DNA from: Prevotella sp.
Lineage (GTDB): Bacteria; Bacteroidota; Bacteroidia; Bacteroidales; Bacteroidaceae
Direction: 5' to 3'
DNA: 64,000 nt
NCBI GenBank assembly: GCA_017554145.1
Contig: JAFZIZ010000015.1
Span: 248,001-312,000 of the forward strand
Part shown: piece by piece, positions 26,917-62,336 of the stretch
Position numbering within the stretch: the stretch's first letter is position 1
Layout: every line of letters starts with the position of its first letter
The notes under the pieces: generated by a model
The model's database searches: none
Told to the model about the DNA's origin: nothing
The model's input: the letters and a program-made list of their open reading frames with translations, nothing else
Made by a program: the position numbers and the translations under genes

Positions 26917-26982
26917 CAAAGGTACACATTTTTTCCATAATCCGTCCTTTATTTACATCATAAAATGTTATAGAGTGTTACA
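26917..26982 (-). promoter_or_regulatory. Boxed promoter of the esterase-GH97-GH31 operon
   Basis: The -7 element TACCTTTG is at 26924-26917 (minus). TGTAACA at 26982-26976 ends exactly 52 bp upstream of it. The expected second copy (26961-26955) is not recognisable. A looser TGTAAAT lies at 26957-26951, 4 bp off the usual position. The same box reads TGTTACA toward the divergent GH9 gene. Confidence 0.5.
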
Positions 26983-40394: not shown

Positions 40395-40414
40395 TGTTAT
40401 ATATTCTTTTGATG

Positions 40415-42034: not shown

Positions 42035-42051
42035 ATCGATTTTTAGATTGA

Positions 42052-44757
42052 TTAGTTGAATTGCCACCAGTCAAGGTGTATATCGCCATTAGCATCGCCA
42101 AAACAGAGATAGAGGTCGTGAACGCCTGCGGCATTCTTTACCTTCGTACTGAAGGAACGGTATTTCTCTAAAGACTTGGTGTCTTTGACCTGGACAGTAC
42201 CGATGACGGGACCGTCGATAGCGTCAAGGCGCAGGGTGATGGTACAACTGCCCATCGCTGCTGCCGTAATATTGAACTGTTTGGCACCTCCGGCAAAATC
42301 AACACCACGCAGACGGATGTATTCGCCATTGTTGATGTCGTAGATATACAGATTCTTCTTGCCAGTAGAGGTGGGCATATTGGCAATGATACCAGTATTG
42401 GGAATACCCATCTTTGCTGATTTCAGTCCGAAGCCCCATGCCATCGTCTCTGCTTCTACGCGTTTGTAGGGATTGAGCCAGTGTAATTGTTTCATCGGTT
42501 GTTGGTCGAGCCAATAGGGAACCTCCTGGATAGTACCATCGGCATTGTAGGTAATCTCTGTGGCAGATACGCTACGACGCTCATGATGAACAAATGTCTC
42601 CAGGTGCATCAGGTCGTAGTTCTGACCAAACACATAACTGTGTCCTTTGTAATCGACAATGCCGGGATGGTTACCACGGTCACGTTCGGTGGGGCGCATA
42701 ATATAACCTTTCCATTCCCATGGACCTGTTGGTGAGTCGCTCATAGCATAACCAAGAGCCTCAGGACAGCAGGTGGAGGCAAAACCGAGGTAATAATGAC
42801 CATTACGTTTATAGAACCAAGGTCCTTCCTGATAGTTGGGAATATGTGGTAACTTTGTTACCTCGCTGGTGAGGGAAATCATATCATTGCCGAGCTTTGC
42901 CCAGAAAGTATGGGGATTACCCCAATACATATAGGCCTGACCATCGTCATCCGTATAGACAGAAGGGTCGATATCGAACCAGTTACTCTGATCCCATACC
43001 AATGGTTTGCCTAAAGGATCCTTAAAAGGACCATAGGGAGAGTCGGCCACCAAGACACCGATACCATGTCCGTGAAGTGGAGCATAGAGGTAGAATTTGC
43101 CGTTGCGCTCTACTGTCTGAATAGCCCAAGCTCCGTTCTCACGACTACGCCATGGGAATTCCTTCAGTGATGCGACAGCACCGTGTTCTGTCCAGTTGAC
43201 CATATCAGTAGTCGACCACAGCAACCAGTCGTACATAAAGAATCCTGCTGAGCCCTTCTCGTTTTCATCAGGAATATCCTCAGGGGAAGCATCGTGAGAG
43301 GTATACAGAAACAGCGTATCACCCACTACCAATGGCGATGGGTCAGCGGTAAACTTGGTTTGGAAGAGCGGCATATTAACCTGTTCCAATCCCCGCATCT
43401 CCCACCAGTCGAAATTGAAGAGCTTCGGACCTTTACGTCCTGTGAAGACAAAATAAAGGTCGTGGTGTCCCTTGATAACGGATGTAAGGTCGGTAGTCAA
43501 TGTCTGCCATTCTTCCCAACCGCCTGTTGCCGGTACTTCCAAACGACCTAACAATTGTCCTCCTAAACTGTCAATACGAATCTCAATAGCACCACCACGC
43601 AAACCACTGGCAACACGTGCCGTAAAGGTACGCGGTGTCTTCTTGCAGAAGTGAACACCTTGCAGTTTGATATAGTCACCATTATGGATATCCGTCACGT
43701 AAACACCGACTTTATCGTTCTGCTCTGTCTTGATTCCTTTAGAGAATGCCATTGTTTCAGCCTCTACCTTGCGATAGGGATCAAACTTGTCAATAGGGTT
43801 GACACCTTTGTCTGTCGGCATAATCGTTGGAAAACTGCCGTCAGCATTATATTTGAACTCTTCTACGGCAACACTACGTCCGAAACCACCGCCATTGGGA
43901 AGTTTTCCTGTGTGATAGAAAAAATAGCTGTGTCCTTTGTAGTCGGCAACACCACAATGATTGGTAAATGACTTTGTATCACAAAGCGGCATAATCTCAC
44001 CTGCATAGGTCCAAGGACCTAAAGGTGAAGGAGCTGTACTGTAACTGATATGCTCGGGAACACCACCAGCCGCATAGAGCAACTGGTAAGTGCCATTACG
44101 TTTGGTCAGCCAAGGGCCTTCTACATAACTGTCTTTATATTTCTTATCCTTGACACGTTCATTCATGGGGGGAGCACCAAAGGCTTCCTCTGTCATCGGC
44201 AACATACCGAGTTCTCCTGAATAGGAAATCATGTCACGATTAAGTTTCAGATAGTAGACGCGTGGATTTCCCCACATGAGCCAAGCCTGACCGTCGTCGT
44301 CAATGAATACTGTAGGGTCGATATGATCCCAAGAACCATTCTCAAACAAAGGCTTGCCTAATGCATCACGAAACGGGCCTGTAGGAGAATCGCCTACAGC
44401 TACACCAATTGCCATTCCTTTGGAAATCTTGGAATGGGCGCAAATATACCAATAGAACTTTCCGTCTCGCTCAACACATTGGCTTGCCCAGGCACGGTCA
44501 TCAGCCCAAGAGAAACTTTCCAGAGCAAGGGGTGAACCGTGATCCGTCCAGTTGACCATATCTTGGGTGGAATAAACACGCCATTCTTGCATCCAGAAGA
44601 AATCGGCTCCATCCTCATCGTGTCCCGTATAGACATACATGGTCCCATCATAAACCATTGGAGCGGGATCAGAAGTACACCACGTTTGTACAAAAGGATT
44701 TTGTGCCGTAGCATTCAGGCATATACCTATCAACAAGGCTGTTGCAAAGCGTTTCAT
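42052..44757 (-). CDS. Tandem GH43-CBM6-GH43-CBM6 protein
   Basis: A 901-residue secreted protein with an internal duplication; start at ATG 44757 (MKRFATALLIG), 8 nt after the upstream stop. Unit 1 (about 20-455): GH43 with DPAPMVYDG, IDPTVFIDDDG and YVEGPWLTKRNG, then a CBM6-like domain beginning KVEAETMAFSKG and ending FDWWEM. Unit 2 (about 460-900): GH43 with DPSPLVVGD, IDPSVYTDDDG and YQEGPWFYKRNG, then CBM6 beginning RVEAETMAWGFG and ending LDWWQFN. All three catalytic carboxylates are kept in both units, so both may be active, perhaps on different linkages. CBM6 usually binds xylan. Confidence 0.9.
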   Translation of the reverse strand: MKRFATALLIGICLNATAQNPFVQTWCTSDPAPMVYDGTMYVYTGHDEDGADFFWMQEWRVYSTQDMVNWTDHGSPLALESFSWADDRAWASQCVERDGKFYWYICAHSKISKGMAIGVAVGDSPTGPFRDALGKPLFENGSWDHIDPTVFIDDDGQAWLMWGNPRVYYLKLNRDMISYSGELGMLPMTEEAFGAPPMNERVKDKKYKDSYVEGPWLTKRNGTYQLLYAAGGVPEHISYSTAPSPLGPWTYAGEIMPLCDTKSFTNHCGVADYKGHSYFFYHTGKLPNGGGFGRSVAVEEFKYNADGSFPTIMPTDKGVNPIDKFDPYRKVEAETMAFSKGIKTEQNDKVGVYVTDIHNGDYIKLQGVHFCKKTPRTFTARVASGLRGGAIEIRIDSLGGQLLGRLEVPATGGWEEWQTLTTDLTSVIKGHHDLYFVFTGRKGPKLFNFDWWEMRGLEQVNMPLFQTKFTADPSPLVVGDTLFLYTSHDASPEDIPDENEKGSAGFFMYDWLLWSTTDMVNWTEHGAVASLKEFPWRSRENGAWAIQTVERNGKFYLYAPLHGHGIGVLVADSPYGPFKDPLGKPLVWDQSNWFDIDPSVYTDDDGQAYMYWGNPHTFWAKLGNDMISLTSEVTKLPHIPNYQEGPWFYKRNGHYYLGFASTCCPEALGYAMSDSPTGPWEWKGYIMRPTERDRGNHPGIVDYKGHSYVFGQNYDLMHLETFVHHERRSVSATEITYNADGTIQEVPYWLDQQPMKQLHWLNPYKRVEAETMAWGFGLKSAKMGIPNTGIIANMPTSTGKKNLYIYDINNGEYIRLRGVDFAGGAKQFNITAAAMGSCTITLRLDAIDGPVIGTVQVKDTKSLEKYRSFSTKVKNAAGVHDLYLCFGDANGDIHLDWWQFN

Positions 44758-44765
44758 GTCTCTTC

Positions 44766-46229
44766 TTAATGATTGCGGAAATTCCACTTAGAATTATCAC
44801 TATTGAAATCGTACTTGGCGAGGGTGGGGGTGCTGTCACCTGCAGAATAGAGACAGAACTCCTTGTTGATACCCTCAATGCCTGGGATGACTTTCGGCAT
44901 AATGCGGAAAGTACCATCGGTAAGTTGCTCGATGCGCCAAAGTTGGGCGTCATCGCCTGTATAAGCAGGAACAGTGGTTACCTCTTTGTCGGTTGTAGCA
45001 GTGAGTGCACGCTCTGTACCCTCAATAGTGATTTTAAAATATGTATTGCCCAGATAGCCACCCTTGCCTTCTACTGGGGTGATAGTCCAACGCTGCCAAG
45101 GACGGAACATGTAATCACCAATGCGAGCAGGAATGTCTCCCTTCGGCCATGTGCCGATGACATCTGCCAGTGTTTGGTTAGCCACGGGCTGAGGAGGAGC
45201 AGCATTCTGCTGTGGTCTGCCAAAGCCACCGAATCCCCCCTGACGGGGCACATTCATACGAACGAAGTCAACTGCCAACTCGAGAGCATAACCGCGACGC
45301 TCTGACTCAATCTCAAAGGTCCCGCCTTTGAACTGTTCGCCTGCCACGGGCCAGCCGTTCTTCCAAAGCAGAGGACGGATTGCCAATGTGGAGCGACCGC
45401 CCATATCAAAGTCGGCCTCCCAGTGGAATGATGTAATCTCAACACCCTCATCAATGATAGTACGTCCGAAATGTCCTGCACCCGTCTTACGGTCGCCAGC
45501 GGCAACTACCATCTTGCCTCCACCGTGATACATATCACGGCCTACATTGTCGAGATAAGGACCCTCAACACTCTTGCTACGACCTACCACGATATTATAA
45601 GTAGAATTTACACCATCACAGCAGGTACCATGGGTACCAAGCAGATAGTACCAACCATCGCGGTAGATGAGGTCAGTGGCCTCACAGTCGATAGCGATAT
45701 CTTTTTCCTTATTACCCTTTACGCGGAAACCTGTATTAGGATCAATCTCGATGAGACGGATGGCTCCAAAGTAGGTACCATAACTAGCCCAAAGACGACC
45801 TGTAGTGGGATCGAGTAACAAACCTGGGTCAATGGCATCCTGATCCTCCATACCGTCGGAGTAGCATACCTCAACGGCCTCTGTCCATTTGAAATCGGGG
45901 GATTTGGGATCGAGGGTCTTGTTCCACATGGTGAGGATACGACCAGCATGACCACCACCGAGCCCACCACCTGTAGCACCGTAGATACAAAGATAACGGT
46001 CGCCAATCTTCAAAACATCGGGAGCAGCACCGCCACCAGGACGTTCTGCACCGCTGTTCCAAGTCCAGCCGTCTTCAGAGATAAGACCTCCGCCTCCAGT
46101 ACCGAAAGTATAATATTTACCGTCGCATTCAGCAATCGTCGAGGGGTCGTGGATATAAGGTGCGCCAATCTGCGCATTAGCAGTTGTGGCTATAGCCAAA
46201 GCCGCTAAAATATGATATAGTTTTTTCAT
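44766..46229 (-). CDS. GH43 enzyme with C-terminal lectin-like domain
   Basis: A 487-residue secreted protein, started at ATG 46229 (MKKLYHILAALA), 1 nt after the upstream stop. GH43 propeller (about 20-330) with HDPSTIAECDG, DAIDPGLLLDP and DCEATDLIYRDG; the pattern is closest to arabinanase-type GH43 (subfamilies 4-6), although the site should act on arabinosyl links here. A Gly-Phe/Pro-Gln-rich insert (about 325-360, QGGFGGFGRPQQ) separates it from a C-terminal domain (about 365-487) with QRWTITP and AQLWRIEQLTDGTFRI, resembling a ricin-like fold. One of four consecutive GH43 genes in one operon. Confidence 0.83.
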   Translation of the reverse strand: MKKLYHILAALAIATTANAQIGAPYIHDPSTIAECDGKYYTFGTGGGGLISEDGWTWNSGAERPGGGAAPDVLKIGDRYLCIYGATGGGLGGGHAGRILTMWNKTLDPKSPDFKWTEAVEVCYSDGMEDQDAIDPGLLLDPTTGRLWASYGTYFGAIRLIEIDPNTGFRVKGNKEKDIAIDCEATDLIYRDGWYYLLGTHGTCCDGVNSTYNIVVGRSKSVEGPYLDNVGRDMYHGGGKMVVAAGDRKTGAGHFGRTIIDEGVEITSFHWEADFDMGGRSTLAIRPLLWKNGWPVAGEQFKGGTFEIESERRGYALELAVDFVRMNVPRQGGFGGFGRPQQNAAPPQPVANQTLADVIGTWPKGDIPARIGDYMFRPWQRWTITPVEGKGGYLGNTYFKITIEGTERALTATTDKEVTTVPAYTGDDAQLWRIEQLTDGTFRIMPKVIPGIEGINKEFCLYSAGDSTPTLAKYDFNSDNSKWNFRNH

Positions 46230-46230
46230 T

Positions 46231-48324
46231 TTATTGTGCATTAATTGAATAGTTAGTTACAGGGTTGCCTTTCTCGTCAAGGAAACGAACGCAGAAATCG
46301 CTCATGCCTGGACCGTTGATAATAGCACCACGGAGGATGTTACGTCCTTTCTTCAAGGTCAGTCTGGGTGACATGGCATCGTCTTTTACCATACGGCGGT
46401 CGCCAGAAAGTAACAAAGTCTCCTTGCCATTAAGCCACCACATGGAGGCAGAGTTCGAACCGACGGCTAAACGAACATTCTCGATATCCTCAGGGCAATC
46501 GATAATCGTTACAGCCCAAAAAAGGACGCCATAGACCTTTTCTCCCCATTTCTCAGCAAAACGGAACAATTTCACGTTGTAATTCTCACTATCGAGGGCA
46601 TGCCATGTAAGTGTTTGAGTAACAGTCTTCACCTCTGGCTGAGCAGGTGCTTGTTGCATACCACGACCAAAGCCTGCGGGAGCTTGTTCCTGTTTGAAGG
46701 TAGCCTTGATTTTCTGACCATCCTTTGGTATGATGGTCTGCTGGTCTTTGAAGTATTCTCTGTTGAAATGCTCACGCAAATAAGTGTCAGTGAAGACCGT
46801 ATTACCACTATTGGGCTTATCGATAGGTTCTAAGAGCAGCCAACGGCGGATGAAACCCTCGTTGTCTGGCTGTATGGCTTGTGCTGTAGCAGGCGTGAAG
46901 TACTTTGGTCGGTTCTTGAACAAAATCCAATCTACAGATACGGCTCCTTCGCCCTCACAAGTAATTACTAAATCTGTTACACCTTTGGGGACAAAGTTCA
47001 AAGCAGCGGTCAGTGTAAGCCACTGATTAGTCATGTCACGACGGAACATCGCTGGAGTTCCTGCTGGAACCTCAGGCTTTACAGTCATCGGTACCTTGGC
47101 GATAATCTTGCCTGTTGCGTTCTTTTCACGGATATAGAACTCAGTATTGGCATTAGCCTTGGCACTGACTATAAGGTAGCCGTCTTTGATGTTGCTGAAA
47201 TCAATATCATTGTAACGGAGCCAACTGCCCTTCTTTGGCAGGGTTGCCTGATAACTACGGAATGTGTTGATGGTATCGATGAGCTCAGAGGTTACATCTG
47301 CACTTGCTTCACTGTAACGATCGATTTCAATTTTCTCTGTAGCGTCGTTGATACCTACGCCACGCAGGGTGGGTTTTACCTCCTGAATGGTGCCATCAGC
47401 ATTAAAGAAAAGTTTCTCGATGCAAACTGAGCGGCGCTTATCATCGCGTGGAGAGAACCAGTTACGATGATAGAAGAGATACCACTGACCTTTGTAATTG
47501 ATAATGCTGTGATGGTTTGTCCAGCAACCATTGTCGTGTTCTGCCATAATCAGTCCCTTGTATTCGTAAGGTCCCATTGGGTTCTTACTCATGGCATATC
47601 CGAGGACTTCGGTATTCTCCCTCACGTAAGGATACGTCAGGTAATAGTTGCCGTTGTACTCGAAGGCAAATGGTCCTTCTGCCTGACGATTAGGCAGGTC
47701 TTTAAGACAGTTTACACCCTTCATCTCAAATTCGCGCTCACCCCACTTGACGGTCTCTGAAGGGGTGTCGTCGGCAAGTTCCTTCATATTGTCCTTGAGT
47801 TTGGCACAACGTCCAGCGCCCCAGAAAATGTAGGCATTGCCGTCGGATGCCAGAAGTACGCAAGGGTCTATACCATTGATGCCCTTGATAGGCTCTGGCT
47901 CAGGGATGAAGGGACCTTCAGGGTTGTCGGCAATGGCTACACCAACACCAAAACCCCTGCCTTCAGCAGCACCAGCGGGGAAATAGAAATAATACTTCCC
48001 GTTCCTGTAAACGCAGTCGGGTGCCCACATGGAATAGGAGTTTGGTCTTACCCATGGTACTTTGTTCTGGGTGACAATTACGCCGTGGTCTGTCCAATCG
48101 GTCAGATTTTTGGACGAGAACACGTGGTAGTCTTCCATGCAGAACCAGTCCTGTCTTTGTCCGACAGGAGGCTTGATGTCGTGCGATGGATAGAGGTACA
48201 CTTTGTCGTTGAATACTCGTGCAGTTGGGTCAGCCGAAAACTGATCACGCACGATAGGATTTTGTGCTATGGACATTGTTGTACTGCATAATACCACCAT
48301 AGCAGTTACCGCTAATTTTTTCAT
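46231..48324 (-). CDS. GH43-CBM6 protein with an extra C-terminal domain (subfamily 1-like)
   Basis: A 697-residue secreted protein, first gene of the 48.3-to-36.1-kb operon. Signal peptide ends SIAQN. GH43 propeller (about 20-320) with DPTARVFND, GIDPCVLLASDG and RQAEGPFAFEYNG. A CBM6-like module follows (about 330-470, ending AVSVDWILFK). The C-terminal 220 residues carry FIRRWLLLEPI and a jelly-roll-like region ending FCVRFLDEKGNPV; this type of domain precedes acetyl-xylan esterase modules in other proteins, but no esterase is attached here. A short GFGRGMQQAPAQ stretch lies inside it. Likely beta-xylosidase or arabinofuranosidase. Confidence 0.85.
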   Translation of the reverse strand: MKKLAVTAMVVLCSTTMSIAQNPIVRDQFSADPTARVFNDKVYLYPSHDIKPPVGQRQDWFCMEDYHVFSSKNLTDWTDHGVIVTQNKVPWVRPNSYSMWAPDCVYRNGKYYFYFPAGAAEGRGFGVGVAIADNPEGPFIPEPEPIKGINGIDPCVLLASDGNAYIFWGAGRCAKLKDNMKELADDTPSETVKWGEREFEMKGVNCLKDLPNRQAEGPFAFEYNGNYYLTYPYVRENTEVLGYAMSKNPMGPYEYKGLIMAEHDNGCWTNHHSIINYKGQWYLFYHRNWFSPRDDKRRSVCIEKLFFNADGTIQEVKPTLRGVGINDATEKIEIDRYSEASADVTSELIDTINTFRSYQATLPKKGSWLRYNDIDFSNIKDGYLIVSAKANANTEFYIREKNATGKIIAKVPMTVKPEVPAGTPAMFRRDMTNQWLTLTAALNFVPKGVTDLVITCEGEGAVSVDWILFKNRPKYFTPATAQAIQPDNEGFIRRWLLLEPIDKPNSGNTVFTDTYLREHFNREYFKDQQTIIPKDGQKIKATFKQEQAPAGFGRGMQQAPAQPEVKTVTQTLTWHALDSENYNVKLFRFAEKWGEKVYGVLFWAVTIIDCPEDIENVRLAVGSNSASMWWLNGKETLLLSGDRRMVKDDAMSPRLTLKKGRNILRGAIINGPGMSDFCVRFLDEKGNPVTNYSINAQ

Positions 48325-48386: not shown

Positions 48387-48452
48387 CAAAGATAATTGTT
48401 TTCTATAGAAAAAAATTGATAGCACGCAACTAATATTTTGCGTGATGTAACA
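48387..48452 (-). promoter_or_regulatory. Boxed promoter of the GH43-esterase-sensor operon
   Basis: The -7 element TATCTTTG is at 48394-48387 (minus). TGTTACA at 48452-48446 ends exactly 52 bp upstream. The second copy is weak (AGTTGCG at 48431-48425). An inverted repeat CACGCAA-N8-TTGCGTG (48423-48444) overlaps that second position. No TTTG is seen at -33. Confidence 0.6.
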
Positions 48453-48517: not shown

Positions 48518-50589
<2,072 letters not shown>

Positions 50590-50611: not shown

Positions 50612-50677
50612 TGTTACATTTGGGAAAGTTTGTGTAACGCATATGTTTGCTCTAGTCTCTCTTTTAGTCTATCTTTG
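50612..50677 (+). promoter_or_regulatory. Boxed promoter of the GH5 gene
   Basis: TGTTACA (50612-50618), 14 bp, TGTAACG (50633-50639), then TTTG at 50646-50649, 20 nt, and TATCTTTG at 50670-50677. The distal and proximal copies end 52 and 31 bp before the -7. This is the most complete promoter of the set, with both boxes and both core elements. Confidence 0.7.
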
Positions 50678-50734
50678 CAAACAAAAATAAGAGCAAGCAA
50701 AGTTAGGTTAGAAATAATATTTAGATTAGTAGTT

Positions 50735-50758
50735 ATGCTAGTTATGGTTTTAGTATGA
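50735..50758 (+). CDS. Putative leader peptide MLVMVLV
   Basis: ATG at 50735 opens a seven-codon frame (MLVMVLV, then TGA at 50756-50758) about 50 nt after the predicted transcription start. Its stop codon overlaps the foot of the hairpin that follows. Composition is entirely Leu/Val/Met. It is too short for coding statistics; position and the parallel case before susC1 are the evidence. Confidence 0.35.
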   Translation: MLVMVLV

Positions 50759-50788
50759 GGGCTGACGTGAGTCACCCCTCTTTTTTTT
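50757..50788 (+). terminator. Terminator hairpin in the GH5 leader (possible attenuator)
   Basis: GAGGGCTGAC pairs with GTCACCCCTC (9 of 10) around loop GTGA, and eight T residues follow at 50781-50788. It has all marks of an intrinsic terminator yet lies 57 nt upstream of the GH5 start and downstream of its promoter. No other gene ends here, so attenuation of GH5 (and possibly xus read-through) is the simplest reading. Confidence 0.75.
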
Positions 50789-50844
50789 AATAATCTAGAA
50801 TTCTATAATATATAATAATGTGTAAAGACTAAAAATATAAATGT

Positions 50845-52221
50845 ATGAACAACATGAAATCAAAACTGTTTGTGTTATGGCTATTGCTTTGTAGTTTCGG
50901 AACTGTAGTAGCTCAGGGGCTACCTGCGCTTCACGTGGATGGACGCTTTTTTGTTGATGAAAACGGAAAGCGTGTGATCTTACATGGTTTTGCCCAGACA
51001 TTTAGTCCTTTTTTCAATGAGGAAGGTGCCTATTGGTCTAACTATGACGTTGAAGGATGTCTTAAATATAATAAAGGTATTATTGATGGAATTATTATAG
51101 CGGGTTGGAAGATGAACTTTGTTCGTCAGCATATGGATCCGTATTGGAGTAATACACCGGGTAAGGATGTTAAGGGTGAAAGTGATATTTCGGCATTCAG
51201 TTCTTATCGTTTTCAGCTTTACCTTGATGAAGTGTTTGTGCCAATGGCGGAGTATGCTATCAAGAGTGGACTTTATGTAGTAATGCGCCCGCCTGGAGTG
51301 TGCCCAGAGAAAATTCAGAAAGGTGATAAGTATTATAAATACTTGAAGAAAGTTTGGAGTATTGTGTCCCAGCACCCGAAACTGAAAAATAATGGTGCTG
51401 TTATATTTGAGTTGGCCAACGAGCCTGTTCAGATTTGCGATGCAAATGGCAATGCTATTAATAATTGGGATGGTGGTTCTTGGGATAAACGTGGTCAGTT
51501 GTTGACCGAGTTTTTTCAGGATGTAGTCAATACCATTCGCGAAAATGAGTGCAATAATATCATACTTGTGCCTGGTCTTCACTACCAGATGCTTTATAGT
51601 ACTTTTGAAAAGTATCCAATTCAGGGTGAAAACATTGGCTATGCCGTGCACTGTTATCCAGGCTGGTATAACAGTGGCTACGATAGCGAAGTTCAAGTTG
51701 TCTATAATGAGTTCAAAAGGGGGTGGAATAACGAGATTATGCCTATTGGAAGGAAGGCTCCTATTGTGGTTACGGAAATGGACTGGGCTCCTGAAAAATA
51801 CGAATCCTCTTGGGGGAAAGCCATTACAGGTACTGCTGGAGGTAATGGTTTCGGGGCAAACTTTATTCGTATTGCCGACGAGAGCTTAAATGTGAGTTGG
51901 TTACTTTTTACTGGAGGTCACTTGTTGGCAAAATATAATGATGCCGCCCCGGATGGGAAAACTTTCCTTACTGACCCTGAAGCTTGTCCGCGTCCTTGTT
52001 ATCGCAGGTTCCAATATTATGCAACGCAAGAATATAGTGACTTGATTAACTCTGAAGGCTATCTTCCTGTCTTTAGCGTTCGAGGGCAAAACGATGTGGT
52101 ACGCCGCGAATATTATACGCTTTCCGGTATAAAATTATCAAAGCCTTGCCGTGGAGTATGTGTGGTAAAGGAAACAAATAGTTCAGGAAAGACATCAATC
52201 TTTAAGATATGTTACAAATAA
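50845..52221 (+). CDS. GH5 endo-glycanase with C-terminal sorting-type tail
   Basis: A 458-residue secreted enzyme, probably an endo-xylanase. Start ATG 50845 (the Met at 50854 is an alternative); the signal peptide ends VVAQG. The GH5 barrel (about 25-375) shows GWKMNFVRQHMDPYW, acid/base Glu in FELANEPV, catalytic His region VHCYPGW and nucleophile Glu in VVTEMDWAPEKY. It resembles the xylan-associated Bacteroidetes subfamily GH5_21, but the subfamily assignment is tentative. The last 60 residues (REYYTLSGIKLSKPCRGVCVV) look like the C-terminal tails of other Prevotella secreted proteins. It precedes xusA by 139 bp and has its own boxed promoter and attenuator. Confidence 0.85.
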   Translation: MNNMKSKLFVLWLLLCSFGTVVAQGLPALHVDGRFFVDENGKRVILHGFAQTFSPFFNEEGAYWSNYDVEGCLKYNKGIIDGIIIAGWKMNFVRQHMDPYWSNTPGKDVKGESDISAFSSYRFQLYLDEVFVPMAEYAIKSGLYVVMRPPGVCPEKIQKGDKYYKYLKKVWSIVSQHPKLKNNGAVIFELANEPVQICDANGNAINNWDGGSWDKRGQLLTEFFQDVVNTIRENECNNIILVPGLHYQMLYSTFEKYPIQGENIGYAVHCYPGWYNSGYDSEVQVVYNEFKRGWNNEIMPIGRKAPIVVTEMDWAPEKYESSWGKAITGTAGGNGFGANFIRIADESLNVSWLLFTGGHLLAKYNDAAPDGKTFLTDPEACPRPCYRRFQYYATQEYSDLINSEGYLPVFSVRGQNDVVRREYYTLSGIKLSKPCRGVCVVKETNSSGKTSIFKICYK

Positions 52222-52275
52222 GAAAGACTATGTAACAACCAAACAATGTTAGTATATAAAAAATGTTTAATTTTG
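52210..52275 (+). promoter_or_regulatory. Boxed promoter of the xusABCDE operon
   Basis: TGTTACA (52210-52216), 14 bp, TGTAACA (52231-52237), and -7 element TAATTTTG at 52268-52275. The copies end 52 and 31 bp before the -7, as in the GH5 promoter. The -33 is poor (TTAG), so activation is probably required. The distal copy overlaps the end of GH5. Confidence 0.65.
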
Positions 52276-52360: not shown

Positions 52361-55300
52361 ATGAGAAATCTAAAGCAATTGATCAAAAGGACTGTTCCTG
52401 CGGTATTAATGCTCATGGTTTTTGTGCTTCAAGCACATGCTCAGGGCGGTATCACCGTTAAGGGTACAGTCGTTGACAGCAACTCAGAGCCTTTGATAGG
52501 TGCTTCTGTTGTTGTGAAGGGAAATTCTTCTCTTGGAACAGTGACTGATTTCGATGGAAACTTCACTTTGAAGGTTCCTTCTGAGGCAACGACGCTCGTC
52601 GTGTCTTATGTGGGAATGACTTCACGTGAGGTGAAAGTTGGAAAACAGCGTTCATTTAACATCACGTTGAATGAAGACACTCAACTTGAAGAAGTCGTAG
52701 TGGTTGGTTATGGACAGCAGAAGAAAGCTTCTGTTGTGGGTGCCATTACTCAGACTACTGGCGAAGTACTTGAACGTGCTGCTGGTATTACTGATATTGG
52801 TGCTGCTCTGACAGGTAACCTGCCTGGTGTTGTAACAATGGCTTCTTCTGGTATGCCAGGTGAAGAGGAACCACAGATTGTCATCCGTGGAACTTCTTCA
52901 TGGAACAACTCAGAGCCTCTGGTTCTGGTAGATGGTGTTGAGCGTTCAATGAATAGCGTTGACATTCAGTCTGTCGCTAGCATTTCTGTATTAAAGGACG
53001 CCTCTGCAACAGCTGTGTATGGTGTGAAAGGTGCTAATGGTGTAATTCTGATTACTACCAAGCGTGGTCAGGAAGGTAAGGCACAAATCAGTGTATCTGC
53101 CAATGCTGTTATGAAAATTCCTTCTAAGCTGCCAGACAAGTACGATTCTTATGATGCTTTGATGGCTCGTAATACAGTCGTAGAGCATGAGTTGAATCTC
53201 AATCCTGCAAGTTTTGCTTATGTTAGACCCGTTAGTTTCATTGAGAACTATCGCCAGTCAGATCCTACAGCAAAGGATGAGTTTGGAAACTTGTTGATTG
53301 AGCGCTATCCGAATGTAGATTGGCAGCGTACTTTGTTTGAGGATTTTTGTATGTCCTACAATGCTAACATGAATATTTCCGGTGGTACTCGTTTCGTGAA
53401 ATATTTTGCCAGTGTTGACTTTGCCTCAGAGGGTGACCTCTATAAAGATTTAGGTGGTGGACGTGGTTATCCAACTGGATATGGATATAACCGCGTCAAT
53501 GTCCGTTCAAACCTCGACTTCAATATTACAAAGTCTACCGTATTGAAAGTCAGTATCGCAGGTTCTAATGCCAAGAAAAAGGCTCCTTACCTTAATTTGA
53601 CATTTAACGACTGGCAGATTTCACAGGCTTGGAATGGTATATATAATATTTCCGGGGATGTATTCCTGCCGAAATATAGTGACGAATCATGGGGCTTCCT
53701 GCCTGGTTCTACCAACGTGGATAACGGTGCTATGAATATTGCTCTTGGTGGTCAGGCGACTGAAACAACTACTACGATTACTACAGACTTTGTTCTTGAG
53801 CAGAATCTTGACTTTATTACCAAAGGACTGAATTTCCGTGGTATGATTGCATGGGACAACCGTTTTACGGAGTCTGGACGTGGTATTAGTGACTTGTATA
53901 ACAATCCACAGCGAAAGTGGATTAACCCCGAGACAGGAGAGATTGTTTATAAGGAGACTTATGAGGGGTATGACCGTTTTGATTATTCACAGGGAATTAA
54001 CTGGAGTACACAAGCTGGATCCGTTACTGGTACAACTCGTAGTTTGAACTACCAGCTTCAACTTAGTTGGGCACGTAAGTTTGGAAAGCATGACATTTCT
54101 GCGATGGGCGTGTTTGCTCGTCAGGAGCAGGCATGGGGAACCATGATTCCTACCTATCGTGAGGATTGGGTATTCCGTGCTACTTATGGATATGACGGCA
54201 AGTATTTCTTTGAGTATAATGGTGCCTATAATGGTTCTGAGAAATTCTCGAAGGATAATCGTTTTGCATTCTTCCAGTCAGGTGCTCTTGGTTGGATGAT
54301 TAGTGAAGAGCCATTCATGAAGTACCTTCGCGAGAAGAAAATCATCGATATGTTAAAGCTCCGTTTCTCTTATGGTGAGATTGGTGACGATAATGTCGGC
54401 GGTCGCTTCCTTTATATGACACAATGGAGTTATGGCGGTAATAGCCATATGCTTATCTCGAACCCTGGTGGTAATTCACCTTATAAATGGTATCGTGAAT
54501 CGACGGTAGGTAACCCCAATGTGCACTGGGAGAAAGTTAAGAAGATGAACTTTGGTATCGACTACGGATTCCTTGGTGGACTGCTTGCAGGTTCTGTGGA
54601 GATTTTCCGCGACAAGCGTGTTGATATTCTGGTGGATGGTGGTCAGCGTGCCGTTCCTTCTTATTTTGGAGCAACTGCCCCGATCGCAAACTTGGGTAAG
54701 GTAACGACTCATGGTTATGAGATCGAACTTCGTGTTAATAAGGTATTTAAGAATAAGATGCGTGTTTGGGCTAACCTGAACATGACTCATGCCGAGAATG
54801 TTATTGATGTGAAGGACGATGCTCCATTGCTGCCTTCATATCGTAAAGAGCAGGGTTATGCAATTGACCAGGTTCATTCTTTTATCAGTAAAGACATGAT
54901 GCAGACCTACGATGCTGTCTATGGATCACCAAAATATGATTCAAAAGATAACCAGAAATTGGCAGGTGACTATTACATCGTAGACTTCAATGGTGATGGT
55001 GTGATTGACAATGTGAACGACTATGTGCCTTATGGTTATGCAGGTATTCCTCAGAATACATATAACGCTACAGTTGGTTTTGAGTGGAAGGGCTTTAGCT
55101 GCTTTGCACAGTTCTATGGTGTTACTAACGTGACTCGTGATGTGTCAATGATCAGTTTCGCAGACATCATGGTTGCCAATGTCTATGATCAGGGTACTTG
55201 GTGGAGCGACGACCATTACGGCGCAGCCAGTGTTACTCCACGTTTCAACGTGAAGCAAGAGACAGGTCTCTATTATGGTACACAGTATATGTGCGATGGT

Positions 55301-55528
55301 AGTTATATCCGTTTGAAGAACGTGGAGGTTGCTTATACCTTTACACAGCCTTGGATTCATAAGATCGGTCTGAAGAGTCTGAAGTTGTTCGTTAGCGGTA
55401 ATAACCTGTGGGTATGGACTCGTATGCCGGATGACCGTGAGTCGAACTTTGGTGGAAACCATAATGCCGGAAATGGAGCTTATCCTACTATGAAGCGTAT
55501 TAACTTTGGTATCAGGTTCAATCTTTAA
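52361..55528 (+). CDS. xusA: XusA-like SusC-type TonB-dependent transporter
   Basis: A 1055-residue outer-membrane transporter for xylo-oligosaccharides. Signal peptide (cleavage after AHA, residue 27), CarboxypepD_reg-like domain (about 30-118), TonB-box-like EVVVVGYG, plug domain (about 120-235 with LKDASATAVYGVKGANGV), then the barrel ending in FNL. First of five genes in the SusC-SusD-SusC-SusD-lipoprotein order that defines the xylan utilisation system (xusA-E) of P. bryantii and relatives. XusB follows after 15 nt. The symbol rests on gene order and the xylan context rather than on a sequence comparison. Confidence 0.9.
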   Translation: MRNLKQLIKRTVPAVLMLMVFVLQAHAQGGITVKGTVVDSNSEPLIGASVVVKGNSSLGTVTDFDGNFTLKVPSEATTLVVSYVGMTSREVKVGKQRSFNITLNEDTQLEEVVVVGYGQQKKASVVGAITQTTGEVLERAAGITDIGAALTGNLPGVVTMASSGMPGEEEPQIVIRGTSSWNNSEPLVLVDGVERSMNSVDIQSVASISVLKDASATAVYGVKGANGVILITTKRGQEGKAQISVSANAVMKIPSKLPDKYDSYDALMARNTVVEHELNLNPASFAYVRPVSFIENYRQSDPTAKDEFGNLLIERYPNVDWQRTLFEDFCMSYNANMNISGGTRFVKYFASVDFASEGDLYKDLGGGRGYPTGYGYNRVNVRSNLDFNITKSTVLKVSIAGSNAKKKAPYLNLTFNDWQISQAWNGIYNISGDVFLPKYSDESWGFLPGSTNVDNGAMNIALGGQATETTTTITTDFVLEQNLDFITKGLNFRGMIAWDNRFTESGRGISDLYNNPQRKWINPETGEIVYKETYEGYDRFDYSQGINWSTQAGSVTGTTRSLNYQLQLSWARKFGKHDISAMGVFARQEQAWGTMIPTYREDWVFRATYGYDGKYFFEYNGAYNGSEKFSKDNRFAFFQSGALGWMISEEPFMKYLREKKIIDMLKLRFSYGEIGDDNVGGRFLYMTQWSYGGNSHMLISNPGGNSPYKWYRESTVGNPNVHWEKVKKMNFGIDYGFLGGLLAGSVEIFRDKRVDILVDGGQRAVPSYFGATAPIANLGKVTTHGYEIELRVNKVFKNKMRVWANLNMTHAENVIDVKDDAPLLPSYRKEQGYAIDQVHSFISKDMMQTYDAVYGSPKYDSKDNQKLAGDYYIVDFNGDGVIDNVNDYVPYGYAGIPQNTYNATVGFEWKGFSCFAQFYGVTNVTRDVSMISFADIMVANVYDQGTWWSDDHYGAASVTPRFNVKQETGLYYGTQYMCDGSYIRLKNVEVAYTFTQPWIHKIGLKSLKLFVSGNNLWVWTRMPDDRESNFGGNHNAGNGAYPTMKRINFGIRFNL

Positions 55529-55543
55529 TTAGTAGAAGAAACA

Positions 55544-57547
55544 ATGAAAAAGTTTATTAATCAATATATTATAATAGGTATAGCAGCCTTGTCACTCTCT
55601 TTGGGAATGACGTCTTGTAAAGACTATCTGGACAAGGCTCCTGAATCTACGGTGGGAGAAGAAGAAGCTTTTAAGAACTTCACCAACTTCCAAGGATTTG
55701 TAGAGGAGGTCTATAACTGTATACCTAATAAGGAGTCCTGCTACTGGTGTGTCACTTTCAACTGGGGCGAGGATGAGATTTGTAATACAGGTATCGGCGA
55801 TACGCATTTGACTGCCCATTTCGATTTGGGTGACTATCGCTGGTGGTATAATAATGAAGATAAGGGAGGAAACCAGAGTTGGTTACACTGTGGTTCTGGC
55901 GACCGTACGTTAAGCCCAACAGCTACTGGTGGTGGAGTAGGTGGCGCTTACCAGCATTCTTTGGAGCATGCATGGTATTGCATCCGTAAGATGAACCTTG
56001 GTTTAGAGAATCTCGACAAGATGGTGGATGCAACACAGGAAGAGAAGAACTTGATTAAGGGGCAGATGCTCTTCTTCCGTGCCTGGTGGCACCATCAGTT
56101 GATAGAGTGGTATGGCGGCATGCCATACGTGGATTATGTATTGCCCTCTGACGAGGTTCTCGCATTGCCACGTCTTTCTTTTAAAGAATGTGCATTGAAG
56201 TGTGCTGAAGACTATCGTGCCGCTGCTGATTTGCTTCCTAATAACTGGGATGAGACGACGGCAGGTCAGAGAACTGCAGGTCAGAACGAGTTGCGTATTA
56301 CGAAAGTTTGTGCTTTAGGCTATATGGGTAAGGTGCTCCTTTGGGCAGCTTCTCCATTGAATGTACTTGGTGCACAGACAGGTGCCCTGAGGAATGGCAA
56401 TACCTATAAATATGATACAGACTTAGCTAAACGTGCTGCTGATGTCTTGGCAGAGGCAATCTCCTATGTTGAAAATGGTGAGACTCCGTACGCTTTGGCT
56501 GAGTTTAATTATTCCAATATTTATGACCATACTCCGGCTGACGGCGCAGAGACTTGTTTCTCTGAAATATTCTATACCACGGGACAAGGTTGGAAACAGC
56601 CTGGAACTGTTGAGGCAATCATGCGTGGTACACCCTCAGGTGCCAATTTGACTCCATGGAACTTTGCCAAGACATGGGGACCTAAGGTGAATGAGTTGGT
56701 ACCACATGACGCTTTCATTCACATGCCAACTGCCAACTATGTGAATTATGCCTATGGTATGGCTAATGGTGAGCCTATTGTGTTGGCTGATGGTTCTCTC
56801 AACCCGAAATCCGGTTTTGATCCAACCCATCCATACAAGAATCGTGACCCACGTTTCTATCATGACATCATGTTTGACGGATTTAAGTTCCTGAACGGAA
56901 CTCCAGCTGCTTCGGATGTGCAATATCAGTATCTGGAAATGTTCCACGGAGGAAATATGGTGCCGTCAGGTGTTACTGCCCGTGAGGCAGATGGTAGCCG
57001 TACAGGTTATTTCTGCCAGAAGCTCATTCCGCACCAGTGTAACAAGGTGGATCAGTTAATGGAGTATGGTAATGAGTTTGAAGGTTACTTACCCTATATG
57101 CGCTTAGCTGATATTTATCTGCTTTATGCAGAGTCTGCTGCGGCTTCTGGTAATTTGAGCAAAGCAGCAAATGCCATTAACGTGCTTCGTGATCGTGTAG
57201 GTGCAGGCCATGTCGCTTCAAGATTTGCCAGTGACCAGAAACTGCTTATTGACGAGATTCGTCGTGAGCGTGCCTGTGAACTTGCCTTTGAAGGTTTCCG
57301 TTGGCAGGACTTGCAGCGTTGGTTGCTGCTGACAGAGTATCCTTATAATATTAAGACTCGTCAGGATTTCTATCGTGCAGATCCTAACTATGATTATGCC
57401 AAGAAAGATCCACGTGATGCAGAGGTGACTGGTTGGAAAGAAGAACTCATTTTGACACGTCAGTTGGGTGTAAAACATTATCTTCTGCCACTGAAGGAGA
57501 GTGACATCTACCTCAACGACCAGTATCCGCAGAACCCAGGATGGTAA
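55544..57547 (+). CDS. xusB: XusB-like SusD-family glycan-binding lipoprotein
   Basis: A 667-residue surface lipoprotein that partners XusA. Lipobox MTSC (Cys at about residue 25), then KDYLDKAPES, a typical SusD start. Helical TPR-like N-terminal region; the RagB/SusD C-terminal part includes YLPYMRLADIYLLYAESAAASG and ERACELAFEGFRWQDLQRW. The end YPQNPGW is the usual SusD tail. Aromatic residues are abundant between residues 80 and 130 (DYRWWYNNEDKGGNQSW), a plausible glycan platform. The stop at 57547 is followed after 32 nt by the chosen xusC start. Confidence 0.9.
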   Translation: MKKFINQYIIIGIAALSLSLGMTSCKDYLDKAPESTVGEEEAFKNFTNFQGFVEEVYNCIPNKESCYWCVTFNWGEDEICNTGIGDTHLTAHFDLGDYRWWYNNEDKGGNQSWLHCGSGDRTLSPTATGGGVGGAYQHSLEHAWYCIRKMNLGLENLDKMVDATQEEKNLIKGQMLFFRAWWHHQLIEWYGGMPYVDYVLPSDEVLALPRLSFKECALKCAEDYRAAADLLPNNWDETTAGQRTAGQNELRITKVCALGYMGKVLLWAASPLNVLGAQTGALRNGNTYKYDTDLAKRAADVLAEAISYVENGETPYALAEFNYSNIYDHTPADGAETCFSEIFYTTGQGWKQPGTVEAIMRGTPSGANLTPWNFAKTWGPKVNELVPHDAFIHMPTANYVNYAYGMANGEPIVLADGSLNPKSGFDPTHPYKNRDPRFYHDIMFDGFKFLNGTPAASDVQYQYLEMFHGGNMVPSGVTAREADGSRTGYFCQKLIPHQCNKVDQLMEYGNEFEGYLPYMRLADIYLLYAESAAASGNLSKAANAINVLRDRVGAGHVASRFASDQKLLIDEIRRERACELAFEGFRWQDLQRWLLLTEYPYNIKTRQDFYRADPNYDYAKKDPRDAEVTGWKEELILTRQLGVKHYLLPLKESDIYLNDQYPQNPGW

Positions 57548-57579
57548 TTAATAGTATAATGTTAAATGTGAAAAGTTTT

Positions 57580-60471
57580 ATGAAACATAATAAATATATC
57601 ATACTGTCAGCTCTCTTGGCTTTGTCGGCAATTCCTGCAACAGCCCAGATTGATGCACCAGACTCTGCTGAGGTCAATGTGGCATTCCGTAAGGTCGCCA
57701 AGGAAGATATCATGGGCGGTGTCTCTTCTCTGAACTACAGGGAACTGATGGAAAAGAACTATAATACCTATAGTCTTGACAATATGCAGGGCTATGTCGC
57801 CGGTTACAACGGTGCAGGTATGTGGGGATATACTGATCAGTTGGTCTTGATTGATGGTGTTCCCCGTGAGGCAAATAACGTACTTCCTTCCGAAATAGAG
57901 GAGGTTACTTTCTTGAAGGGTGCACAAGCAGTGGTACTCTATGGTAGTCGTGCAGCAAAAGGTGCTATTCTGATTACCACAAAGCGTGGTAGGGTTTCTG
58001 ATGGCTTAAGTATCAATGTCCGTGCCAATACAGGTTGGAATGTACGTAAGTCTCTTCCAGAGTATCTCAACTCTGCGGATTATATGACACTGTATAATGA
58101 GGCTCGTCAGAACGACGGTCTTGCTCCTCAATATACTCCTGAGGAGATTGCGGATTATGCCAGTGGAGCCAACCCATATCGTTATCCGAATGTGGATTTC
58201 TATTCCTCTGATTATATTAAGAAGTCATACAATCGTTCAGACGTGACAGCAGAGATTGAAGGCGGTAATAATCGTACTCGTTTCTATGCGAATGTCAGCT
58301 ATTACCGTGAGGGAAGTTATCTGAATTTCGGTGAGGCCAAGGATAATTATACTGATCGATTTAATGTCCGTGGTAATGTAGACATGCAGTTGAATGATTT
58401 CCTTTCTGCTTACGTGAATGCCAATGCGACATACTATAATGCGAGATCCGCAAGATCGACGCAGTCTGGCGATTATTGGCAGGTAGCTGCCACATGGCGT
58501 CCTAACCGTATTGCTCCACTGATTCCGATATCAATGATTGATCCGACTGCGACGGATGCACTGAATGCTTTGACATCTTCTCGTCACATTATTGACGGAC
58601 AGTATTTCTTTGGTGCTAAGAATCCAGATTTGACTAACATCTTTGCTGACTATTATGCAGCAGGTAAGAGTACATGGACCAGTCGTCAATTCCAGTTCGA
58701 TGCTGGTGTAAACTTGGATCTGAACGGAATCTTAAAGGGATTGACCTTCCATACGATGATTGCGATTGATTATGCAACAACTTATTCAACCTCTTATGAG
58801 AACCAATATGCTACTTTCGAACCGACATGGGATGATGAGACAGGTTTGATTACAGCATTGGATAATCATGAGAGTGTAGACCAAAGTGACGGTAATCAGC
58901 GTTTTGGTAGCCAGACAGATAATCAGACCATTGCATTTAATGCTCATTTTGATTACAACCGTACTTTCGCAGATGTGCATCATGTGAGTGCCATGTTGGT
59001 TGCTAATGGCTATCAGCAGTCAAAGTCTGGACAGTATCATAGGACCAATAATGTCAACCTTGGTCTGAACCTGTCATATAACTACGATAAGAAATACTAT
59101 GCAGAGTTCTCTTTGGCTACTCCTTGGACAACAAAACTGGCAGAGGGTAAGCGTGCAGGATTCTCTCCCTCTGGAACAATTGGTTGGAATATTGCCAGGG
59201 AAAAGTTCATGGAAGGTAGTATTTTTGACAATCTGACGGTTAGTGTCAGTGCCAGCAACCTGAAGACAGATATGGATATTGAAAATTATTATATGTATCT
59301 GGGTACTTATCAGAGTGGTGGATGGTTTGACTGGAATGGTCTGACAGGCTTCTCACTCTATCAGTCTAAGCGTGGTGGCAATAATGATCTTGCTTATCTT
59401 AAGCGTAAGGAGTTCTCTGCCTCTATTCACGCAGAGTTGCTGAAGCGCTCTCTAAGTTTTGACGCTTCATTCTTCACTAGCCAAATGGATGGTGGTATTA
59501 TTTTGGCAACCAATCAGGTACCAAGTTATTTCAGAGTTGGCTATCCTGAGTCATCTTTCATTTCCTATATGAATTATAATAAGGATAACCGGACAGGATT
59601 TGACGTAGCTGTGAAATACAAGAAGCAGCTGGGTGAGTTCGGTATCGAGGCCGGTGCCAATCTGACTTATTATAAGACGAAAGCCGCTCAGCGTGATGAT
59701 AAGAATTACGCCGATGAATACCAGTATCGTGAGGGTCAGCCATTAGATGCTATTTGGGGTTATCAGTGTGCAGGATTCTTCGATAAAGGTGATTTCGACG
59801 AAAATGGAAATGTGATAGGTGGACCGAATGGTACTATGAGCTATCAGCTTGGCGGTACTCCAAAGATGGGTGACTTGAAATATGTCGACCAGAATAATGA
59901 TGGTATTATTGACACGAAAGACCAAGTGAACCTTGCTACTGGTGGCTGGTACGGTGCTCCTACTACTTTAGGTATCAACCTGACGCTGAAATACAAGAAC
60001 TTCACCCTCTTTATGTTAGGTGTTGGTGGCTTTGGTGGTCATGGCGTTAAAGGTCAGAAGAGTGATGGTAGCAGAGAACCTTATTGGTGGGTTCAGGGTA
60101 CTGATAAGTATTCTGCTGTGGTACTTGATCGTGTGCAATATACGTTCGATGAGGAAGGCAATGCCACAGGACTTGCTAATGCTGCAACAGCATCTTATCC
60201 TCGTCTGACTACAACTAATGGAGCAAACAACTATCAGGTATCTGATTTTTGGGTTTACTCTACTTCTCGTTTTGATCTTGCCAAGGTTCAGTTGACCTAT
60301 GACTTCCCGAAGTCTGTATTCAACAAGGTTAACTTCATTAAGGGTGTTTCTGTTTATGTAAGCGGTAACAGCCTGTTGACCTTTGCTAAGGAAAAGAAAC
60401 TGCTTGAGATGAATTTGGCTTCTGCTCCACAGTCTCGTTTCTACAACCTTGGTTTTAAAGTATTGTTCTAA
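57580..60471 (+). CDS. xusC: XusC-like SusC-type transporter without CarboxypepD_reg domain
   Basis: A 963-residue outer-membrane transporter. The start is placed at ATG 57580 (MKHNKYIILSALLAL) because it yields a clean signal peptide ending ATAQ; an upstream in-frame ATG (57541) would overlap the xusB stop. Unlike XusA it goes almost directly into a shortened plug (QLVLIDGVPREANNV, FLKGAQAVVLYGSRAAKGAILITTKRGR). The CarboxypepD_reg domain and a recognisable VVVGYG TonB box are missing. The barrel ends in FKVLF. This reduced form is known for second SusC proteins of tandem pairs. How it contacts TonB is not clear from the sequence. Confidence 0.88.
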   Translation: MKHNKYIILSALLALSAIPATAQIDAPDSAEVNVAFRKVAKEDIMGGVSSLNYRELMEKNYNTYSLDNMQGYVAGYNGAGMWGYTDQLVLIDGVPREANNVLPSEIEEVTFLKGAQAVVLYGSRAAKGAILITTKRGRVSDGLSINVRANTGWNVRKSLPEYLNSADYMTLYNEARQNDGLAPQYTPEEIADYASGANPYRYPNVDFYSSDYIKKSYNRSDVTAEIEGGNNRTRFYANVSYYREGSYLNFGEAKDNYTDRFNVRGNVDMQLNDFLSAYVNANATYYNARSARSTQSGDYWQVAATWRPNRIAPLIPISMIDPTATDALNALTSSRHIIDGQYFFGAKNPDLTNIFADYYAAGKSTWTSRQFQFDAGVNLDLNGILKGLTFHTMIAIDYATTYSTSYENQYATFEPTWDDETGLITALDNHESVDQSDGNQRFGSQTDNQTIAFNAHFDYNRTFADVHHVSAMLVANGYQQSKSGQYHRTNNVNLGLNLSYNYDKKYYAEFSLATPWTTKLAEGKRAGFSPSGTIGWNIAREKFMEGSIFDNLTVSVSASNLKTDMDIENYYMYLGTYQSGGWFDWNGLTGFSLYQSKRGGNNDLAYLKRKEFSASIHAELLKRSLSFDASFFTSQMDGGIILATNQVPSYFRVGYPESSFISYMNYNKDNRTGFDVAVKYKKQLGEFGIEAGANLTYYKTKAAQRDDKNYADEYQYREGQPLDAIWGYQCAGFFDKGDFDENGNVIGGPNGTMSYQLGGTPKMGDLKYVDQNNDGIIDTKDQVNLATGGWYGAPTTLGINLTLKYKNFTLFMLGVGGFGGHGVKGQKSDGSREPYWWVQGTDKYSAVVLDRVQYTFDEEGNATGLANAATASYPRLTTTNGANNYQVSDFWVYSTSRFDLAKVQLTYDFPKSVFNKVNFIKGVSVYVSGNSLLTFAKEKKLLEMNLASAPQSRFYNLGFKVLF

Positions 60472-60491
60472 TAGGATAAAGAATTATAGAC

Positions 60492-62309: not shown

Positions 62310-62336
62310 TCAAACAATGTAAAATTTAAAAGAAAA

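Follow-up and report, generated by a model that had tools for sequence, protein, structure and literature searches.

In a 64,000-nucleotide stretch of a rumen Prevotella sp. genome (the window; C18:248001-312000 of genome G000, 2.8 Mb), six promoters of xylan-type genes share a two-part box. Judging from the sequence, this box is very probably the operator recognized by a xylan sensor of the XynR type, an AraC-type hybrid two-component sensor (HTCS), and the predicted regulator is the product of a gene just outside the window, at C18:243560-247579. The repeat, its spacing and polarity, its conservation, the neighbouring genes, and the co-occurrence and adjacency of the HTCS gene were all directly observed. 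Fetched genomes and loci are denoted by G- and L-numbers, respectively.

Structure and genomic distribution of the tandem site

The element consists of TGTWACA-N6-AAA-N5 given twice with a 21-bp period, followed by N30 and the -7 element TAnnTTTG. The direct repeat with this period was seen in 62 sites from other genomes as well as in a set of 78 non-redundant sites, selected on the motif and taken from other genomes only, from which a scoring matrix was built. The conserved AAA six bases past the box had been overlooked by the first-pass annotation, which was made from the letters of the window alone; in the six window promoters, it reads AAA in four cases, ATA in one and AAC in one. Although absent from the search pattern, the first AAA (columns 13-15) is present in 58 of the 78 sites, and the mirrored TTT in none; the second AAA is weaker (25/78), yet has the top count for any start in columns 28-55. 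Between the non-box columns 7-20 and 28-41 of these sites, the correlation is 0.79 when aligned in register and no higher than 0.49 at other shifts, and with a self-inverted correlation of 0.11, the site as a whole lacks dyad symmetry. Thus, the element is polar and tandem rather than palindromic. The W letters of the two boxes pair as T/T in 36 sites, T/A in 19, A/A in 12 and A/T in 11. In the -33 region, TTTG occurs in no more than 8 of the 78 sites at any one position, and the lack of a fixed -33 TTTG would fit activator-dependent promoters.

In all six window promoters, exactly 51 bases separate the end of the distal box from the start of TAnnTTTG; for the two good proximal boxes (xusA and GH5), this spacer is 30 bases. 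The first-pass annotation, whose box letters and coordinates were correct, had given fixed distances of 52 and 31; the constancy holds, but these values are coordinate differences and the true spacers are 51 and 30. Its counts of proximal-copy matches to the box (7, 6, 6, 5, 4 and 1 of 7) were obtained again when counted by hand. With the matrix, the six promoters rank 1-6 among the 50 TAnnTTTG sites of the window (scores 40.1, 28.0, 18.2, 11.1, 9.2 and -7.5; seventh-best site, -19.1), and none of the six keeps a score above -22 once shifted by 1-4 bases. Because the matrix was built only from sites of other genomes, the effect of the post hoc choice of box and distance is removed. The absence of the box from other promoters, claimed earlier for six of them, extends to all 44 remaining TAnnTTTG sites scored in the window. 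Among 97 such sites in seven other stretches of G000, a single one scored high (C37:99377, 19.1), and the rest scored -13.3 or lower.

Genome-wide, TGTWACA-N51-TANNTTTG has five exact matches, namely four in the window and C37:99377, and, with at most one mismatch, 15 matches versus six for the reversed pattern, which was the control in all genome scans; the TGTWACA-N52 variant has one exact match, at none of the six promoters. The refined pattern, to which the AAA and the second box are added, yielded five matches in the genome at up to three mismatches, all in the window, and none for the control. These matches are the xusA, GH5, GH97, GH43 and SGNH-CE1 promoters, so that the hits do not scatter at random over the genome, the outcome that the first-pass annotation had set against its own reading. 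The boxes alone, with up to two mismatches and no -7 element, are not enriched in the genome (49 places versus 84 in the control); since the control exceeds the genome count, the two boxes are uninformative at this stringency without the -7 element.

Two places with both boxes at up to one mismatch, C14:63603 and C36:59196, were set aside because no fitting -7 element was found at up to one mismatch (single box) or three mismatches (two boxes); C36:59196 is near an AraC-type gene. The site at C37:99312-99377 (minus strand; L121:4312-4377) lies ahead of a gene whose 400-aa product has no counterpart in Pfam or NCBIfam and of a GH5-like gene, and is a possible distant member of the regulon. NCBIfam provided no name for the GH5 of the window, nor for three proteins near C37:99377.

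The HTCS gene and conservation of the site across genomes

Genome searches with Y_Y_Y and HTH_18 located the HTCS gene on the minus strand, 421 bp to the left of the window, and found no HTH_18 match within the window, in agreement with the earlier statement that it contains no such regulator gene. The 1339-aa product contains Reg_prop, Y_Y_Y, HisKA, HATPase_c, Response_reg and HTH_AraC domains and is a complete AraC-type hybrid two-component sensor, with a periplasmic-type sensor, HisKA and HATPase_c in the same chain, and a receiver (REC) followed by a C-terminal AraC-type helix-turn-helix (HTH). Reg_prop scored 112 bits, Response_reg 83.6 and HTH_18 87.8; Y_Y_Y scored 24.1 bits in the protein scan (cut-off 26.6) and 29.5, above the cut-off, in the genome search. 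Residues 1087-1336 match the solved REC-HTH chain 12aw_A (E 3.1e-53).

Other candidates for the regulator were rejected. An HTCS-like protein encoded on C37 (1252 aa) has no HisKA or HATPase match, and over its C-terminal 108 residues, it shares 35% identity with the C18 protein, compared with 75-87% for the orthologs in L096, L101, L102, L104 and L111. Two Y_Y_Y proteins encoded on C14 appear to stop before any REC or HTH domain, and there is no HTH_18 match on C14.

Six HTCS orthologs, 50-62% identical over their length, adjoin motif-bearing GH5, xusA or GH43 genes: the ortholog (54-61% identical) is divergent from GH5-xusA in four relatives (L101, L102, L104 and L111) and located beside a GH43 gene in two more (L096 and L106). 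Among 299 genomes of the same genus, the pattern of two boxes and the -7 element at up to one mismatch, a search that yields a motif-selected sample, was detected in 157, at 413 places versus 8 for the control. A close HTCS ortholog (E<=1e-95) is present in 125 of the 299 genomes, 117 of which (94%) have the site, whereas the site is found in 40 (23%) of the 174 genomes that lack the ortholog (Fisher p 1.7e-37). At the family level, the refined pattern at up to two mismatches was detected in 101 of 301 genomes, representing 16 of 30 genera, with no control hits among the matches listed.

The remaining samples, namely two sets of xusA upstream regions, a set of HTCS-anchored loci and a set of HTCS upstream regions, were assembled blind to the motif, and Markov sequences served as the control for upstream regions. 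The first xusA set consisted of the 29 best orthologs outside the window genome, with the xusA locus of the window itself excluded. All 29 regions contain the site at up to two mismatches (control 0-1); in 27, it is in the forward orientation, exactly 30 bases from the -7 element, and L254 and L255 have the reversed type, with no -7 element at 30. The second set included 72 further, more distant regions, after L273 and L323 were dropped as too short: 49 have the site at up to three mismatches (control 0-2), 32 with the -7 element at exactly 30. In this set, the site is present in 40 of the 51 regions accompanied by a close HTCS ortholog and in 9 of the 21 without one. Thus, the conservation in orthologous promoters on which the first-pass annotation had staked its case is borne out.

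The HTCS-anchored set was derived from 80 named loci (Prevotella, Prevotellaceae or Bacteroidales records), of which 78 were used after removal of two near-duplicates. A box-to-box gap of 14 bases occurs 40 times, versus a mean of 0.9 for gaps of other lengths. The distances from a box to TAnnTTTG show peaks at 51 and 30, with 31 cases each, and at 28, with 22. The pattern at up to one mismatch is present in 30 of the 78 loci, compared with 0-2 when the box spacing is altered and with 0, 4, 0 and 0 for other box letters. With the -7 element displaced, the count was 12 when it was brought two bases closer, 9 when it was moved one base away, 4 and 3 when it was brought five bases and one base closer, and 0 in the two other cases; the counts of 12 and 9 look partly genuine. 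For the HTCS upstream set (400 bp), 17 of the 78 loci had no usable upstream stretch or expected open reading frame (ORF) and were dropped. A reversed copy of the site lies ahead of the HTCS gene in 40 of the remaining 61 regions (control 0-3), within 165 bp of the gene in 30 cases and only farther away in 10. In 23 of the 61 regions, the reversed site fits the HTCS gene's own TAnnTTTG at a distance of 26-29 bases, 18 of these at 28.

Within the genus, the genes directly downstream of the sites include orthologs of the GH5, xusA, SGNH-CE1, GH43, GH97 and SusC genes. Pfam scans of ten unlabelled downstream genes identified one GH115, two GH95, one GH98, one GH43 and four MFS_2 sugar transporters, with one gene left without a match; three more genes encode a GH10, a thioredoxin-like protein (L105) and a protein without a match, and one gene 3.7 kb away (L100) was excluded. 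At L109:8579-9299, three tandem-site promoters are located within ~720 bp upstream of a single GH43 gene. For the other genera, 30 loci out of the 101 genomes with a match were examined, and all 30 sites are intergenic. The genes downstream of these are xusA, GH8-CE15, GH5, esterase, SusC, GH43, GH3, and SASA or arabinofuranosidase, along with eight tested proteins without a Pfam match or label and one MoxR ATPase (L233); some sites have no gene within reach. In larger stretches, sites occur ahead of xus, GH10-CE1, GH43 and GH97 genes.

In some genomes with a diverged HTCS, the boxes of xusA are altered: G121 and G188 have TGAGACA-like boxes and G034 has TGTTGCA/TGCAACA, and TGATACA also occurs. 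Taken with the aligned DNA-binding domains (loci L340-L345 and the xusA regions), this apparent co-variation suggests a possible co-evolution of the DNA-binding domain and the operator.

Alternative explanations and proposed mechanism

The assignment to an AraC-type, HTCS-like activator, already proposed in the first-pass annotation, is supported by the polarity of the repeat, the adjacent full-length HTCS gene, the conservation of the site in orthologous promoters, the co-occurrence and the reversed sites. Several observations weigh against it. The p-value of the co-occurrence is inflated because the genomes are related; 8 of the 125 genomes with a close HTCS ortholog have no site at up to one mismatch, and the 40 carriers among the 174 genomes without one run the other way. 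Among the distant xusA upstream regions, 23 of 72 have no site at up to three mismatches, and of the 49 with a site, 4 are better fitted by the reversed form. Only 21 of the 78 HTCS-anchored stretches contain xusA (GH10-CE1, 18; a GH43, 15). The 10 far reversed sites probably serve a divergent neighbour instead of the HTCS gene, and the HTCS gene of G000 itself is preceded only by a half-site, TGTAACA, 28 bases (counted by hand) before TATCTTTG. With 13 HTH_18 matches in G000, another AraC-type protein, though improbable, might bind the site, and the genome is only 84% complete. The esterase promoter is the weak member, with the distal box alone. Finally, a few downstream genes are not obviously related to xylan (the thioredoxin-like L105, the MoxR ATPase L233 and several without a Pfam match); the L233 and L105 sites may be chance matches.

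The alternative that best withstands the data, although unlikely, is that the box is common to several HTCS paralogs and marks a group of polysaccharide operons beyond a single xylan regulon. This would fit the up to 11 sites that some genomes of the wider family have, with HTCSs near the sites only 33-39% identical to that of C18, as well as the box variants where the HTCS is diverged and some downstream genes that escaped identification. However, all five refined matches in this genome are promoters of the xylan locus, and in the genus, most of the identified downstream genes encode xylan-type enzymes and transporters. It is considerably less probable that a different AraC-type regulator of G000, instead of the adjacent HTCS, binds the site. 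The 13 HTH_18 matches and the 40 genomes with orphan sites would allow for such a regulator, as would G087, which has a perfect xusA site and no HTCS match at E<=1e-60, but these exceptions may arise from gaps in the assemblies or from an HTCS that has diverged or been replaced, and the adjacency of the HTCS gene in relatives, the 94% versus 23% co-occurrence and the reversed sites before the HTCS gene all point to the HTCS itself.

The palindromic TGTWACA itself and the TGTTACA...TGTAAC of xusA and GH5 suggest that TGTTACA-N14-TGTAACA could be a palindrome bound by a symmetric dimer, for example a catabolite regulator of the Crp/Fnr type. We give this reading hardly any credence: it is contradicted by polarity, given the AAA without a mirrored TTT and the halves that form a direct repeat, by the frequencies of the W-letter pairs, and by downstream genes that are mostly of xylan type rather than a general catabolite set. 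The idea that the boxes match by chance, or belong to an ordinary core promoter rich in A+T, is refuted as a general account and has a negligible probability, for although box and offset were picked post hoc and the boxes alone are unenriched, the matrix from other genomes places exactly these six promoters on top, the refined pattern finds the locus in five of five genome matches with an empty control, only one of the 97 sites in other stretches exceeds -13, and the conservation holds in motif-blind samples.

Returning to the HTCS as the predicted regulator, AraC-type domains contain two HTHs and read a pair of patches roughly ten bases from each other; TGTWACA and AAA would be the two patches of one monomer, so that two tandem monomers would match the 21-bp repeat. 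We infer the following course of binding, ligand recognition, phosphorylation, activation and autoregulation. Each half-site, TGTWACA-N6-AAA, would be read by both HTHs of one AraC-type monomer, the two half-sites being a direct repeat, 21 bp apart and on the same helix face, with a spacer of 30 bases between the near half-site and TAnnTTTG. A xylan oligosaccharide would bind the periplasmic sensor, upon which the kinase would phosphorylate the receiver, leading to tandem binding of two DNA-binding domains. At a promoter that is weak by itself, the proximal domain would then contact RNA polymerase over the -33 region, and the xylan operons would be switched on together; the reversed copy ahead of many regulator genes may adjust the regulator's own expression. 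According to the passages of PMC11253607 on this subject, HTCS DNA-binding domains are inactive until phosphorylated, via a conserved S/CHIP-DK interface; the SHIP part of this interface is SHVP in the G000 HTCS.

A bolder extension, which we advance tentatively and which may well prove wrong, is an orientation-and-distance code by which a single polar operator would govern the entire xylan regulon: forward sites 30 bases above TAnnTTTG would switch on operons for enzymes and uptake, reversed sites ~28 bases above the HTCS -7 element would set the regulator level, and the box letters would drift with the HTCS DNA-binding domain (boxes resembling TGAGACA or TGCAACA where the HTCS is diverged), such that regulator and operator co-evolve across the Bacteroidaceae-type family. 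If this orientation code and co-evolution are real, regulons would be assignable from sequence alone.

Target genes, neighbouring features and comparison with known systems

Table 1. Tandem sites, -7 elements and predicted target genes in the window (positions in window coordinates; operons inferred from gene spacing)
Feature	Position	Strand	Remarks
Distal half-site box TGTTACA, xusA promoter	52210..52216	+	overlaps 3' end of GH5 gene
AAA of distal half-site, xusA promoter	52223..52225	+	
Proximal half-site box TGTAACA, xusA promoter	52231..52237	+	
-7 element TAATTTTG, xusA promoter	52268..52275	+	start codon 85 bases on
Distal half-site box TGTTACA, GH5 promoter	50612..50618	+	
AAA of distal half-site, GH5 promoter	50625..50627	+	
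Proximal half-site box TGTAACG, GH5 promoter	50633..50639	+	
-7 element TATCTTTG, GH5 promoter	50670..50677	+	
Tandem site TGTAACC-N6-AAA-N5-AGTATCA, SGNH-CE1 promoter	50562..50589	-	
-7 element TAATTTTG, SGNH-CE1 promoter	50524..50531	-	
Tandem site TGTTACA-N6-AAA-N5-AGTTGCG, GH43 operon promoter	48425..48452	-	
-7 element TATCTTTG, GH43 operon promoter	48387..48394	-	
Tandem site GGTTACA-N6-ATA-N5-TGATACA, GH97/GH10-CE1/GH8-CE15 operon promoter	21157..21184	-	overlaps end of GH31 ORF
-7 element TATCTTTG, GH97 operon promoter	21119..21126	-	overlapped by TTG start 21121 of ORF finder
Single distal box TGTAACA, SASA esterase-GH97-GH31 operon promoter	26976..26982	-	proximal box absent
-7 element TACCTTTG, esterase operon promoter	26917..26924	-	
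GH5 target gene	50845..52221	+	Pfam PF00150
xusA-xusE target operon (SusC, SusD, SusC, SusD, DUF5627 protein)	52361..63332	+	spacing
Target operon GH97, GH10-CE1, GH8-CE15	14448..21121	-	Pfam; spacing
Target operon SASA esterase, GH97, GH31	21168..26888	-	Pfam; spacing
Target operon, four GH43 and BD-FAE esterase	39468..48324	-	spacing; may extend to 36070
Target gene SGNH-CE1 esterase	48518..50479	-	Pfam

Since the predicted TTG start at 21121 overlaps the -7 element, the true start of the GH97 gene should lie further downstream. The divergent GH9 gene (27076, plus strand) and the esterase promoter have one and the same TGTTACA, within 26976-27038; this box stands 48 bases before the GH9 TATCTTTG at 27031, three off the 51-base rule, and is perhaps shared or non-functional. 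At 36070-39464, gapless after the GH43 operon, are genes for a sensor histidine kinase with a Cache domain and for a dCache-HAMP partner that lacks a kinase; homologs of the two (46% and 40%) adjoin GH5 in L096. Might this pair form an additional system that senses xylan products independently? Two DUF6057 and PD40 gene pairs (2315-5006 and 11280-14360) flank a SusC/SusD pair and may belong to xylan use, because their homologs in another genus (G370, L357) adjoin xus genes with operator-like sites. By matrix scoring, the susC1 and DUF6057 promoters of the window have no site, yet the homologs in the other genus (G370, L357) do.

Xylan breakdown by rumen Prevotella is a main route of plant-fibre digestion, and a XynR-type activator is known genetically. 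The site ties six promoters of the cluster to a regulator gene just outside the window and provides a sequence test for the xylan regulon in many genomes. A system of this kind, HTCS, direct-repeat operator and polysaccharide utilization locus (PUL), is already known; the open-licence literature searched yielded no account of this operator, of a half-site made of two patches, of a constant distance of 30 bases, of a reversed site before the regulator gene or of the regulon list.

Among AraC/XylS-type systems, araI1-I2 of E. coli has tandem half-sites ~21 bp apart, with the near one by -35, and a monomer uses two HTHs. The site described here is similar in its tandem ~21-bp half-sites, the near one beside a promoter element, but differs in that a membrane sensor kinase carries the DNA-binding domain at its C-terminus and in that the promoter belongs to the Bacteroidota TAnnTTTG type. 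XynR of P. bryantii, reportedly described by Miyazaki et al. in 2003 as a multidomain regulator that controls xylanase genes positively in a rumen Prevotella, is comparable by description, not by sequence, as a regulator of the same multidomain type in the same kind of host.

A functional parallel is provided by the xylan HTCS BXY_29350 of Bacteroides xylanisolvens. As described in the relevant passages of PMC4855328, this regulator is needed for growth on xylan and controls two operons of its own PUL; its insertion mutation lowers the expression of that PUL and also that of some genes in a distant one, the control of PUL 43 and rPUL 70 being left as 'directly or indirectly'. With such a site, it would be simple to explain how a single HTCS reaches distant operons. 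Unlike the present case, those passages give no operator, and the main text uses 'motif' once and 'binding site' not at all. There is also a likeness to the HTCS operators of Bacteroides thetaiotaomicron, with direct repeats of ~21 bp, AraC-type HTCSs and susC/susD loci; in the passages of Ravcheev et al. 2013 (PMC3878776) on HTCS motifs, these are direct repeats of two conserved sites, on average 21 bp apart. As in published HTCS operators, we observed a ~21-bp direct repeat ahead of susC/susD and enzyme operons for a single glycan, a regulator gene nearby and conservation of the site in orthologous promoters. The 16 motifs of that study are from Bacteroides and concern other glycans, its main text containing 'xylan' once and 'Prevotella' not at all, and compared with those operators, the half-site described here splits into TGTWACA and AAA and stands at a fixed distance from the -7 element.

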